A stretch of 15,852 nt of DNA from Streptosporangiaceae bacterium (GTDB lineage: Bacteria > Actinomycetota > Actinomycetes > Streptosporangiales > Streptosporangiaceae): NCBI GenBank assembly GCA_030045215.1, contig JASIBJ010000037.1, forward strand, positions 1-15,852, read 5' to 3'. A program made the position numbers and the translations under genes. The notes under the pieces were generated by a model that saw only the letters and a list, made by a program, of their open reading frames with translations, was not told where the DNA came from and did not search any database. Shown here piece by piece: positions 588 to 6,781 of this stretch; position 1 is the stretch's first letter; the number at the start of each line of letters is the position of its first letter.

Positions 588-2407
588 ACCAGGTGGGCAA
601 GCTGACACTGGTCATCCGGCTCGCTCTGAGGGACCTGCGGCGCCGCCGGGCCGAGACCGTGATGCTGCTGGTCGTAATGACCGCGGTGACGGTCGCGCTC
701 GGCCTCGCGTTCGCGCTGAACGGAGTCACGCAGCGCCCGTACGCGCAGACCAGGACCGCGACCAGAGGTCCCGATCTCGTGGCCTCCTTCCAGGACATCG
801 GCCCCCTGCCGCCGGGCCAGACTGCGGCTGCCGCACTAGGCGCGATGTCGGCCCTCGCCCGCGAGCCGGGCGTGGCCGGATCATCCGGGCCACTCCCGGT
901 GGCGTGGCCCGTTGTCCAGGTCAATCGGCTGACCGCCGGGGTCGAGGCCATCGGTCGGGAGGCCACTCCGCCGGCGATCGACCGACCCGAGCTGACCGAG
1001 GGCAGCTGGGTACGGCCGGGCGGCGTTGTCGTGGAGCGGAGCTTTGCCATGGCGCTCGGCGTGAGCGTCGGAGAGCGGCTGACCCTGAACGGCAGGCCGT
1101 TCACGGTTGCCGGCATCGCCATCAGCGCTGCCGATTCCCCCTACCCGCGGGCCCAGTACGCCACCTACGGCGGCCCCTATGCGCAGACGGACTTCGGCAC
1201 AATGTGGTTGACCACGGCCGACGCTCGCAGCCTGGCCACCCGCAGCTTGCCGCTGTCCTACGTGGAATACCTGAAGCTCGCCGATCCGGCCCGGGCCGGA
1301 CAGTTCCTGGCCGCGCATTCCGGCGGCAGGTTCGCGGTGCTCGGCTTGGTCTCCTGGCAGGACATCGCCGGAAGCGATAACAACATGGTTGCCGTTGAGC
1401 AAAAGCTACTGATGATCGGAGCCTGGCTGCTCGGCCTGCTCGCCCTCGCCAGCGTGGCTGTCCTCGTCGGCGGCCGGATGGCCGACCAGGCGCGGAGAAT
1501 CGGCTTGCTCAAGGCCGTAGGCGGTACGCCGAAGCTGATCGCCGCAGTACTGCTGGCCGAGAACGTTATCCTCGCGCTGGCCGCGGCCGGTCTCGGGCTC
1601 GGGCTCGGCCGGCTGGCCGCACCGCTACTCGCTAGTCCGGGCTCCGGGCTGCTCGGCCCGCCGGGCTCGCCGTCAATGACGCCGCGCTCGGCCGGGATCC
1701 TCGTACTGGTCGCGCTGGCCGTCGCGCTCCTGGCCACCGCCGGACCGGCGCTGCGCGCCGCGCGCGCGAGTACCGTCTGCGCCTTGGCCGATGCGCCCAG
1801 GGCGCCACGGCGCTCGGGCGCGCTGATCCGGCTGTCCCGGCGGATGCCGGTCCCGGTGCTGCTGGGGCTGCGCATGGCCAGCCGCCGGCCCCGGCGGCTG
1901 GTGCTTACGGCCGCCAGCGTCACGATCACTGTCACGACCGTCGTGACCGCACTCACCGCGTTCGGGGAGGCCCGGCAGGCCAGTGCTGGCTTCTCGGCCC
2001 TGGCCGACCCGCGGACTGCGCGGCTCGAACAGGTCATGCTCGTCATCGCCATCGCTCTCGTGGTGCTGGCCGCAGTGAACGCTGTCTTCATCACCTCAGC
2101 GATCGAGCTCGATGGACGGCATTCCTCAGCGCTGGCGCGCGCCCTCGGCGCCAATGCCGGCCAGGTTACGGCCGGCCTGGCCGCGGCCCTGCTGCTGCCC
2201 GCGACCGCGGGCGCGATCGCCGGGGTCCCGGCGGGCGTCGCGCTAGTGGCGGCGCTCAGCCACGGCGGCGGATTCGGCACCCCGCCGGTCTGGCAGCTGC
2301 TGGCCGCGGCGGCCAGTGTCCTGGCCCTGCTTGCCGCGATGATCGCGGTGCCCGCCAGGATGGGTGGGCGGCGGATGCCGGCTGAGGTCATGCAGACGGA
2401 GGGGTGA
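584..2407 (+). CDS. FtsX-family ABC transporter permease
   Basis: 607-residue membrane protein starting at a GTG that overlaps the previous stop (GTGA). After one N-terminal helix (about 25-47) comes an extracytoplasmic MacB_PCD-like domain (about 50-265). Helices follow near 275-297, 315-340 and 370-392, with the FtsX-type cytoplasmic coupling segment RRIGLLKAVGGTPKLIAAVL between the first two. A second FtsX-like half (helices near 437-460, 481-505, 534-558 and 570-592) lacks a large external domain and resembles the preceding gene's C-terminus. It is shorter than the roughly 800 residues usual for two-domain FtsX permeases. It probably works with its neighbour and an unseen ATPase in export or lipid/peptide handling; this role is inference. 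Its last 20 bases overlap the 3' end of the convergent sigma-factor gene. Confidence 0.88.
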   Translation: MNQVGKLTLVIRLALRDLRRRRAETVMLLVVMTAVTVALGLAFALNGVTQRPYAQTRTATRGPDLVASFQDIGPLPPGQTAAAALGAMSALAREPGVAGSSGPLPVAWPVVQVNRLTAGVEAIGREATPPAIDRPELTEGSWVRPGGVVVERSFAMALGVSVGERLTLNGRPFTVAGIAISAADSPYPRAQYATYGGPYAQTDFGTMWLTTADARSLATRSLPLSYVEYLKLADPARAGQFLAAHSGGRFAVLGLVSWQDIAGSDNNMVAVEQKLLMIGAWLLGLLALASVAVLVGGRMADQARRIGLLKAVGGTPKLIAAVLLAENVILALAAAGLGLGLGRLAAPLLASPGSGLLGPPGSPSMTPRSAGILVLVALAVALLATAGPALRAARASTVCALADAPRAPRRSGALIRLSRRMPVPVLLGLRMASRRPRRLVLTAASVTITVTTVVTALTAFGEARQASAGFSALADPRTARLEQVMLVIAIALVVLAAVNAVFITSAIELDGRHSSALARALGANAGQVTAGLAAALLLPATAGAIAGVPAGVALVAALSHGGGFGTPPVWQLLAAAASVLALLAAMIAVPARMGGRRMPAEVMQTEG

Positions 2408-3942: not shown

Positions 3943-5235
3943 TCACGGGCTCAGCCGGTGCAGGTCACGCGGGAACATCCTCACTTGCCGCACGTTCGCG
4001 GCGCCGGTCAGCCGTGCGGTCCACCGCTCCAGCCCGATCGCGAACCCGCCGTGCGGCGGCATTCCGTGCTCGAACACCTGCAGGTACGCCGCATATGGCC
4101 CGGCTGACTGGCCGCGAGCGGCCAGCGCGGCGAGATAGTCCTCGTGCCGGTGCAGTCGCTGCCCGCCGGTCACGATCTCCATGCCGCGGAACAGCAGATC
4201 GAACCCGTAGGAGTAACGGGGCCGGTCCGGGTCGGGGTAGGTATAGAACGGCTTGCTCTCCAGCGGATAGCCGGTGACGAAGATCAGCTCACTGCCGTAC
4301 TCGCGTCCGGACCACTCACACAGCCAGCGCTCGTGCGCGGGCGCAAGGTCCGGCGCGCCCGTGACATCCTCGCCGGTCGCCCCGGAGATCAGTTCCATCG
4401 CGTCGGCGAAGTGAACGTGCGGGATCTCCGCCGGCACGGCCGGCAGCGCGGCTTCGAGCCGGTCCATTTGGTCCCGAGCCCGTTCCGCTACTGAACTGAC
4501 CATCCCGGCGACCGCGTCCCGGCAGACGGCCATTACGTCGAAGTGGTCAGTGATGAATCCGAACTCGGCGTCCAAGCTGGTGTACTCGGCCAGGTGCCGG
4601 GCGGTGTCGGATGGCTCGGCCCGGAACACCGGTCCGACCTCGTAGACGCGCTCGAACACGCCGACCATGGCCTGCTTGTAGAACTGCGGCGACTGGGCCA
4701 GGTAGGCCGGCCGGCCGAACCAGTCGAGCGCGAAGACGTTCGCGCCGGACTCGGTGGCCGACTCGACGATCTTCGGAGTGAACACCTCGGTGAAGCCGAG
4801 ACCGTCCAGCGCCGCCCGGAATCCGGCCACGCTGGCGGCCGCGATGTCGAACCCGGCGCGCAGCAGCGGGTGGCGCAGCGTCGTCGGCGCGTGGTCCAGG
4901 ATCGTGGGCAGCGTGGCCGTGAGCGTCGGCCGGTACAGATCGAACGGCGGCGGCACGGCCGGTCCCGACAGCTGGGTCAGTATCGGGTCGGTGAGCTCGG
5001 CGCCGCCAGGGGCCTGCTCGTTCTCCGTGACAGTGCCCTCGACCTGCAGGACTGTCTCCTCGGGCAGGTCGACCGCCGGGCCGGGCGGCAGCACGACCTG
5101 GGCCAGCCCGGCCCGGTCCCTGAGGATCAGGAACGTAACGGATTTCAGTTCCCGGCGGCGGTGCAGCCAGCCGGCGATCGTGATGCGCTCGCCGACGTGC
5201 CTGGGCAGGTCGGCGGACAGTACTCGTGAGATCAT
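3943..5235 (-). CDS. aspS: Archaeal-type (predicted non-discriminating) aspartyl-tRNA synthetase
   Basis: 430-residue class II aminoacyl-tRNA synthetase of the short archaeal/eukaryal AspRS type; the usual bacterial AspRS is near 590 residues with a GAD insertion, absent here. An N-terminal OB-fold anticodon-binding domain (about 1-100; GWLHRRRELKSVTFLILRDR) precedes the catalytic core. Motif 2 is FRAEPSDTARHLAEYTSLD and motif 3 is GGFAIGLERWTARL near the C-terminus. His25 (GWLH) and Pro76 (QAPGG) sit where non-discriminating enzymes carry His and Pro, so it probably also makes Asp-tRNA(Asn) for GatCAB. The start at 5235 is chosen because GGGAG (5245-5241) lies five bases upstream; the ATG at 5247 would overlap that ribosome site. 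It is a single-gene unit under the T-box leader described separately. It may be a second AspRS in this genome (inference). Confidence 0.92.
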   Translation of the reverse strand: MISRVLSADLPRHVGERITIAGWLHRRRELKSVTFLILRDRAGLAQVVLPPGPAVDLPEETVLQVEGTVTENEQAPGGAELTDPILTQLSGPAVPPPFDLYRPTLTATLPTILDHAPTTLRHPLLRAGFDIAAASVAGFRAALDGLGFTEVFTPKIVESATESGANVFALDWFGRPAYLAQSPQFYKQAMVGVFERVYEVGPVFRAEPSDTARHLAEYTSLDAEFGFITDHFDVMAVCRDAVAGMVSSVAERARDQMDRLEAALPAVPAEIPHVHFADAMELISGATGEDVTGAPDLAPAHERWLCEWSGREYGSELIFVTGYPLESKPFYTYPDPDRPRYSYGFDLLFRGMEIVTGGQRLHRHEDYLAALAARGQSAGPYAAYLQVFEHGMPPHGGFAIGLERWTARLTGAANVRQVRMFPRDLHRLSP

Positions 5236-5536
5236 CACAGCTCCCATCGGGATTTGTGGCGACCCCTTGGGAGTGCGGGCGATAAGGGAACTCGCGGTGC
5301 CACCGCACTTTCGCCGCGGCCCGGTGTCGGTGCGTGATCGCCGGGAGCGACCTCGTCGGGCCCGGTGACGGGGGCTGGCCGGCGGGGCATTGAGCCGGCC
5401 GCTGGCGGCGGTCGCCGTTCCTCCCCGCGCTCAGGAGTGTCTTCGCGGACCGGGGTGCGAGGCCGCCTTCTCAGCTGCCGGCGGCTCTCTGGCTGCTCGC
5501 GTGCTCCCGCGCTACTTGTCTCCGTCGACGCGTTGC
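5236..5536 (-). promoter_or_regulatory. T-box riboswitch, Asp specifier (GAC), translational type
   Basis: Leader of aspS, read on the minus strand. Stem I: CGCG (5532-5529) pairs with CGCG (5429-5426), with a kink-turn-like internal loop (TCGAC / TGAG). GGAG (5523-5520) pairs with CTCC (5437-5434). The specifier loop has AGTA (5516-5513) opposite GAA, followed by codon GAC (5441-5439, Asp). Above it CGCGG (5511-5507) pairs with CCGCG (5448-5444). Distally there is AGAGAG, then stem GCCGCC/GGCGGC (5485-5480/5467-5462) with a GCTGAGAA loop. Antisequestrator: GTGCGG (5308-5303) and CCGCAC (5278-5273) flank the bulge TGGCACC (5302-5296) and stem GCGA/TCGC. The TGGC bulge can pair with a GCCA tRNA end, and tRNA-Asp has discriminator G73. 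Alternatively CTCCC (5273-5269) pairs with the GGGAG ribosome site (5245-5241), hiding it. There is no terminator T-run, so control should be of translation. Confidence 0.92.
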
Positions 5537-6362: not shown

Positions 6363-6480
6363 CCGCCGGGCGCGGCTCTGTCTGCCCGGTCTGCCCGCCG
6401 GCTGCCCGGCGTTGCTCCGGCGCTGGATTGGCCGGGCGCTGGCCGTCGGGTTTGTCGGTCCGGTGCGGCGGCCCTTATAC
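6363..6480. other. Non-coding stretch after the paiB-like gene
   Basis: This is GC-rich sequence with scattered CCGG/CGGGC-type short repeats that could form weak hairpins. I see no gene, no ribosome site and no convincing terminator. It leads into the inverted-repeat element and the tandem repeats that fill the rest of the 419-base gap. Confidence 0.5.
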
Positions 6481-6571
6481 CCCAGGTCTGACCTTTCATC
6501 GATTCTGTACGCGCAAAACGGTACAAAGCATGACGAGAAATGTACAGAATCGATGAAAGGTGGCGCCTGGG
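6481..6571. repeat. 91-nt long inverted repeat (hairpin or MITE-like element)
   Basis: ACCTTTCATCGATTCTGTAC (6491-6510) is matched perfectly by its reverse complement at 6542-6561. Outside it, CCCAGG (6481-6486) pairs with CCTGGG (6566-6571) across a symmetric 4x4 internal loop. The 31-base centre (6511-6541) and the arms are clearly richer in A and T than the surroundings. It could be a small non-autonomous mobile element, a stable RNA hairpin or a protein-binding site. I see no convincing target-site duplication. It lies between the convergent paiB-like and marR genes, and the loop is too large for an ordinary terminator. Confidence 0.8.
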
Positions 6572-6594
6572 AGAGCATATGCCGGAAATGCCGC

Positions 6595-6753
6595 GCGGCT
6601 GGGCGTTGCCAGGGGTGGTACGCGGCTGGACGTTGCCAGGGGCGGTACGCGGCTGGGCGTTGCCAGGGCGAAAGGCGGCTGGGCGTTGCCAGGGGCGGTA
6701 CGCGGCTGGGCGTTGCCAGGGCGGAACGCGGCTGGGCGTTGCCAGGGCGGAAC
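6595..6753. repeat. Six tandem 26/27-bp repeats
   Basis: Six head-to-tail units start at 6595, 6622, 6649, 6675, 6702 and 6728. Each begins GCGGCTGGGCGTTGCCAGGG (unit 2 has one A for G); the variable tail is GTGGTAC, GCGGTAC, CGAAAG or CGGAAC. Unit lengths are 27, 27, 26, 27, 26 and 26, so no reading frame is kept and the array is unlikely to be protein-coding. Each unit holds a small inverted repeat, CTGG-N6-CCAG. There are no spacers, so it is not a CRISPR array. It lies just beyond the marR stop codon. Confidence 0.88.
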
Positions 6754-6781
6754 GTGGGATTACGCCGAAGTCGGTCGTGCC

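Follow-up and report, generated by a model that had tools for sequence, protein, structure and literature searches.

Directly 5′ of a gene for an archaeal-type aspartyl-tRNA synthetase (AspRS), on the minus strand of a 15,852-nucleotide stretch of Streptosporangiaceae DNA (the window; all positions are those of this whole stretch), lies a leader at ~5535–5236, which raises the question of whether it controls the gene that follows, and which tRNA it would sense. In actinobacteria, the T-boxes described in the available text of two earlier studies control ileS via hairpins over the ribosome site (PMC1262725, PMC2494555), and in our literature search, within the accessible text of the sources, an actinobacterial Asp T-box is nowhere described. 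TBDB, for which a class II model was run over reference genomes of actinobacteria (PMC7778990), may list some such loci. By its sequence the leader is a genuine Asp-specific T-box, and it quite probably works as a riboswitch through which a build-up of uncharged tRNA-Asp increases translation of a second AspRS. Comparison among relatives supports its identity, the register of its specifier, its helices and a complementarity between the antisequestrator loop and the tail behind it.

The gene (aspS2, 5235–3943, minus strand, 430 amino acids) probably starts at 5235, with GGGAG (5245–5241) 6–10 nt upstream, rather than at an in-frame ATG at 5247. The 434-residue frame from 5247 scores 519 bits with the family model NF003483 (cut-off 353) and 331 bits with TIGR00458, below that model's own cut-off of 368, and among solved sequences T. 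thermophilus AspRS-2 (1n9w, 3kfu), named as non-discriminating and archaeal-type, comes closest. Pfam recovers the class II core and an OB fold, with no GAD domain among its matches at E 1e-6, a domain used to tell AspRS types apart (PMC4206432, in the portion available). An initial reading of the letters (the sequence-only reading) had called the enzyme archaeal-type, and these matches bear it out; the protein falls in the non-discriminating family and may charge tRNA-Asn as well. Its nearest relatives, at 82–89% identity, are in Streptosporangiaceae MAGs. In each of the 12 relatives' genomes checked there is a bacterial-type AspRS too (685 bits or more, cut-off 374), so aspS2 is extra there and is presumably a second AspRS in the window's own genome too; no AsnRS match reaches E 1e-80 or the cut-off in any of the 12, and Asn-tRNA may be made through Asp-tRNA-Asn. 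One Amycolatopsis genome has, in addition to aspS2, a pair of bacterial-type AspRS genes scoring 704 and 610 bits.

Every T-box part that the sequence-only reading had laid out on the minus strand could be located by direct reading of 5536–5236. A -10 element, TATCCT (5547–5542), precedes a predicted transcription start at ~5535, and relatives carry TANNNT at the equivalent spot: among 60 leaders the start of stem I was located in 54, and all 54 have the motif at that distance from stem I, against a background of ~1% of random 16-nt stretches. Stem I (5527–5434) comprises a kink-turn base (GGAG/CTCC, 5523–5520/5437–5434), an internal loop of AGTA (5516–5513) and GAA (5444–5442) followed by the specifier codon GAC (5441–5439), a middle arm, the distal motif AGAGAG (5490–5485) and an apical loop. 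Behind it come stem II (GCGGGG/CCCCGC, 5428–5382), a stem IIA/B pseudoknot (GCCC/GGGC and CGTC/GACG, 5375–5354) and the antisequestrator, in which helix A1 (5309–5303/5278–5272) and helix A2 (5295–5292/5282–5279) flank the T-box bulge TGGCACC (5302–5296).

Rfam's T-box family, RF00230, matches the leader in two parts, stem I (5531–5429, minus strand; 29.5 bits, E=0.0027) and the 3′ part (5310–5275, minus strand; 16.2 bits, E=7.4); neither match reaches the gathering score of 93. This score is of little use for actinomycetes, because none of the 10 RF00230 matches in six related genomes, which lie at ileS as well as at serS and aspS2 genes, reaches it; relatives' aspS2 leaders give E-values down to 1.1e-11 and are still below gathering. 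A covariance model of the lineage, built from 20 leaders of other actinomycetes with the window and its Streptosporangiaceae MAG relatives held out, matched 5444–5264 on the minus strand at 98.3 bits (E=1.1e-28), the next match having E=0.16. The T-box identity claimed from the letters is supported, this held-out match being the decisive test and far above chance.

The homologous leaders, where the sequence-only reading had proposed to look for covariation, display it in the helices of stem I, A1 and A2. Across 66 distinct full-length stems (65 with GAC, one with UCC), four of the six pairs next to the specifier loop (positions 3–6) beat all 200 shuffles, for example with 55/66 against a shuffled maximum of 45, while positions 1 and 2 did not rise above the shuffles, and the arms of stem I pair better with their own partners than when re-paired (−22.2 vs −16.6 kcal/mol). 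Stem II varies little, each pair being formed in 54–55 of 56 leaders; the first pair of stem IIA covaries (G-C 25, A-U 29, C-G 1 of 56), and two of the four pairs of stem IIB form, as aligned, in only 23 and 24 of 56. In 82 distinct sequences A1 is paired in 99.3% and A2 in 95.6% of cells, with double changes in both. Taken together with the loop/tail helix described below, they are paired in 95.0% of cells (85.5% shuffled, 40–59% when slid), with both sides changed in 133 cells (43 when shuffled) and a covariation score of 0.288 against 0.131, counts that are inflated by the relatedness of the sequences. Alignment A1 omits the short-stem-I loci L048 and L050–L052, and the module set leaves out L105, L156 and L185.

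The specifier follows the gene: GAC stands before three AspRS types and UCC before SerRS. GAA-GAC was found at 106 of 115 AspRS-linked loci, 103 of them aspS2 and three a second type of the same family, and the remaining nine have GAC by eye, as CAA-GAC in L138 and with a shortened stem I in eight (L048, L050–L052, L101, L103, L104 and L106). These 115 loci are 114 distinct leaders (L034 and L091 are identical) after removal of 24 other duplicates from the specifier table; when more than one pattern fitted within 260 nt, the search favoured GAC or TCC, and the table entries for L104 (GAA-CCA) and L181 (GAA-AGG) are pattern artefacts. The register is fixed because all eight serS-linked loci, which have the same scaffold, read GAA-UCC at the equivalent position; IleRS loci read AUC-ACC in 13/16 (a loose pattern). 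The position following the specifier, reported to hold a conserved purine, has C in 28 of the 66 stems, a point against this reading.

At the other contact, TGGC of the bulge (5302–5299) complements the GCCA end of tRNA-Asp with its G73. The fourth T-box base is C (UGGC) at 93 and T (UGGU) at 22 of the 115 AspRS loci, C at 7/8 SerRS loci and T at 16/16 IleRS loci, and tRNA-Asp has anticodon GUC and G73 in 11/11 genes, all from relatives' genomes (10 of the 12, as G001 and G004 gave no pattern match); UGGU at AspRS loci would need a G-U wobble with G73. Because the specifier tracks the gene and the fourth base the discriminator, and tRNA-Asp has GUC and G73, Asp is the supported reading, as had been claimed from the codon and the bulge.

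That the T-box also senses tRNA-Asn, since the enzyme's family charges both tRNAs, would accord with membership of the non-discriminating family and with the AsnRS result in the 12 relatives' genomes, and tRNA-Asn also has G73. However, an AAC overlapping the specifier is absent from the window, as the sequence-only reading had noted and as we confirmed, GAC persists by eye even in ultrashort stem I forms, and three clostridial aspS2 leaders do read AAC, so that the lineages differ just at the codon; we consider dual sensing highly improbable. These are the three among the loci L064–L080 with a T-box motif within 450 nt (L067, L075 and L079), which likewise stand upstream of an archaeal-type AspRS gene but have, by eye, an AAC specifier followed by a hairpin and a run of T that is short in L075, and are presumably transcriptional because of that hairpin and run. 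The aspS2 T-box of C. acetobutylicum reportedly reads both tRNA-Asn and tRNA-Asp.

A trait of known T-boxes is absent from the Asp-specific leaders. A conserved G-U at the A2 base is described, in the text available, as the chief sieve against 3′-aminoacyl groups (PMC7583486), yet in the window this pair is G-C, and among 82 Asp and Ser leaders it is G-C in 81, A-U in one and G-U in none, whereas all 15 actinomycete ileS leaders have G-U. The G-U pair is a structural trait and not a criterion for T-box membership, and its loss is not confined to actinomycetes, because by eye the clostridial L075 also has G-C (L067 and L079 have G-U). This substitution makes the need for a wobble pair in sensing aminoacylation directly testable. 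A decayed relic, kept only by its coding and promoter context, could have lost this described sensor pair and would score below gathering in Rfam, but compensatory changes, retention of the specifier at each AspRS locus read and occurrence in many actinomycete genomes all argue against decay, which we judge exceedingly improbable. The Asp-specific T-box has, in addition, a feature outside the described scheme.

Within the loop of A2, CCCTT (5288–5284) is complementary to AAGGG (5268–5264) just 3′ of A1, a possible pseudoknot, and this complementarity covaries. Across 82 sequences the five pairs are formed in 88.3% of cells, with double changes at two of them in 21 and 19 sequences: pair 33-51 is U-A in 51 and C-G in 21, and pair 34-50 is U-A in 51, G-C in 16 and C-G in three. 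At least four Watson-Crick pairs are possible in 54/59 distinct Asp sets and 7/7 Ser sets (61/66), against 17% and 5% of letter shuffles; the sets that fall short are L098, L101, L117 and L119 with three pairs and L102 with two. When loops and tails are re-paired across types, 61% still reach at least four pairs (own mean 4.64 vs 3.95) because CCC/GGG is nearly invariant, and support for the pairing therefore rests on the flanking columns. In ileS leaders at least four such pairs are possible in only 4/15, their loops being 29 to about 42 nt long. The pairing might belong to the ON state or, in an H-type pseudoknot with the helix at the ribosome site, to the OFF state, and on geometric grounds the 3-nt linker would seem too short to span A1 and A2. 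Blocking the loop and tail strands in nested folds hardly changed the mean exposure of the ribosome site (0.39 to 0.37 and 0.25 to 0.28, for the two folded states considered below) and favoured neither state.

For tRNA binding, for which way and how strongly the gene is controlled and for what the loop/tail pairing does, we infer the following scheme. GAC of stem I would pair with the GUC anticodon of tRNA-Asp and, by analogy, the module of AGAGAG and the apical loop would contact the tRNA elbow, while UGGC would pair with the GCCA end of the uncharged tRNA and so stabilise A1 and A2. With charged tRNA, A1 would be lost and its 3′ strand (GCACUCCC) could pair with the ribosome site; a local hairpin over the start codon and the A2-loop/tail pairing would compete for the same GGG strand and may both take part in the switch.

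The sequence-only reading had proposed that CTCCC (5273–5269) pairs with the GGGAG ribosome site as a translational switch. Its complementarity is real, the 3′ strand of A1 forming a duplex of −15.3 kcal/mol with the ribosome-site region, and no hairpin with a T run was seen by eye in the window's leader; the simple CTCCC/GGGAG switch does not appear in nested folding, however, as a local hairpin predicted at 5266–5228 covers the ribosome site and start codon in both folds, even with the antisequestrator formed. Across 82 loci the complementarity averages −10.6 kcal/mol, against −9.4 re-paired (only a modest gain) and −7.2 shuffled, and it is weak in some lineages (L043, L049 and L117). In nested folds of 75 Asp leaders, mean exposure of the ribosome site was 0.39 with A1/A2 enforced and 0.25 with the 5′ strand of A1 blocked, but the gain exceeded 0.2 in only 24 of the 75 (one was reversed) and in one of seven Ser leaders. 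Exposure in the window hardly differs between the two states (0.18 vs 0.08), because the local hairpin covers the site. The folding z of this hairpin is −2.9 in the window; at the 71 loci (of 82) where the spacing is no more than 60 nt the mean z is −1.27, and 43 of these fall below −1; in these local folds GGG of the loop/tail strand is paired in 43/71 and at least three ribosome-site bases in 48/71. The tail also complements the start region better with its own partner (−9.7) than when re-paired (−7.8) or shuffled (−5.9).

A translational mode is thus partly supported, and the same results bear on the view that this is a true Asp T-box which acts on transcription or mRNA stability, its start hairpin being unrelated. 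Since the hairpin is present whichever state is folded, access of the ribosome is not clearly switched, and termination in high-GC actinomycetes can rely on Rho or proceed without a strong U-tract. Yet by eye the leader lacks the hairpin and T run, and many lineages, like the window, have a ribosome site to which the 3′ strand of A1 is complementary. Actinobacterial ileS T-boxes are moreover described as translational, in the parts of the sources available (PMC1262725, PMC7583486), and control at the level of transcription or stability seems to us improbable. We would tentatively suggest, with more doubt than confidence, that the actinomycete Asp and Ser leaders form a T-box subclass with a pseudoknotted antisequestrator, in which the A2 loop captures a strand needed otherwise to close the start-codon hairpin, switching runs through the loop/tail pairing and charging is sensed without a G-U wobble.

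Beyond what had been read from the letters, the Asp T-box of actinomycetes has this A2-loop/tail pairing, G-C in place of G-U, a serS sister class and a wide spread. A T-box motif lies within 220 nt of the matched start at 60 of the first 63 relatives' loci; near the gene, L006 and L057 have no recognisable T-box, that of L056 lies as far as 3.5 kb from the matched start, and L055, with AAC by eye and then a hairpin with a T run, is of a different kind, all four being left out of the leader sets. With E up to 0.001, model R1 matched 16/197 genomes of the class Actinomycetes, 36/200 of the order of an Amycolatopsis and 23/197 of the order of a Yinghuangia, three groups that overlap. Fifteen of the 16 class loci precede AspRS genes (L099 by a match over 87 residues only), the sixteenth being L105, and downstream genes were read at 30 places for the 36 matched Amycolatopsis-order genomes. 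R1 matches without an aminoacyl-tRNA synthetase gene are L105, which has no T-box motif, and L156, where a degenerate T-box-like sequence occupies ~1380–1800 of the reversed locus with no synthetase gene found downstream.

The enzymes and the stem I forms vary. L093, L136 and L139 carry the Asp T-box before the second AspRS type (L093 is 35% identical to the window's enzyme, the other two 91% to L093), different enzymes behind one switch type. In L104 (~1414–1700, minus strand), from the 3.2 Mb genome G140, an ultrashort Asp T-box precedes a bacterial-type AspRS gene, and an Amycolatopsis leader (L049, 4788–5014) is without the AGTA and distal stem I module kept in L043 and L045–L047. The serS sisters (L085 at ~1444–1760, minus strand, with L146, L150, L153–L155, L157 and L159; three identified by family model, the others by similarity) share the scaffold, the A2 base G-C and the loop/tail pairing (each in 7/7 distinct sets) and UGGC (7/8), but differ in their specifier, UCC, and their gene. 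The actinobacterial ileS T-box is alike in its order of stem I, II, IIA/B, III and antisequestrator, in UGGN beside A1, in an A1 3′ strand that can pair with the ribosome site and in its range from full-length to ultrashort stem I, as far as the available text describes them (PMC1262725, PMC7583486). In contrast, the aspS2 leader has GAC and not AUC, a different gene, UGGC more commonly than UGGU, the A2-loop/tail complementarity, and no G-U at the A2 base in the 82 leaders of its type, against 15/15 in ileS. These loci suggest that T-box control in actinomycetes extends past ileS to serS and a spare AspRS, the latter pointing to a response to Asp-tRNA stress, and the serS and aspS sisters on one scaffold form a natural codon-swap series.

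Elsewhere in the window, other Rfam matches were dismissed as chance, such as mir-3524 on both strands of an inverted repeat (6470–6577) between an FMN-binding gene and a MarR gene, where only such miRNA matches occur. Between the same two genes lies a tandem array (6594–6754) of 6.1 copies of a 27-base unit with 90% matches.
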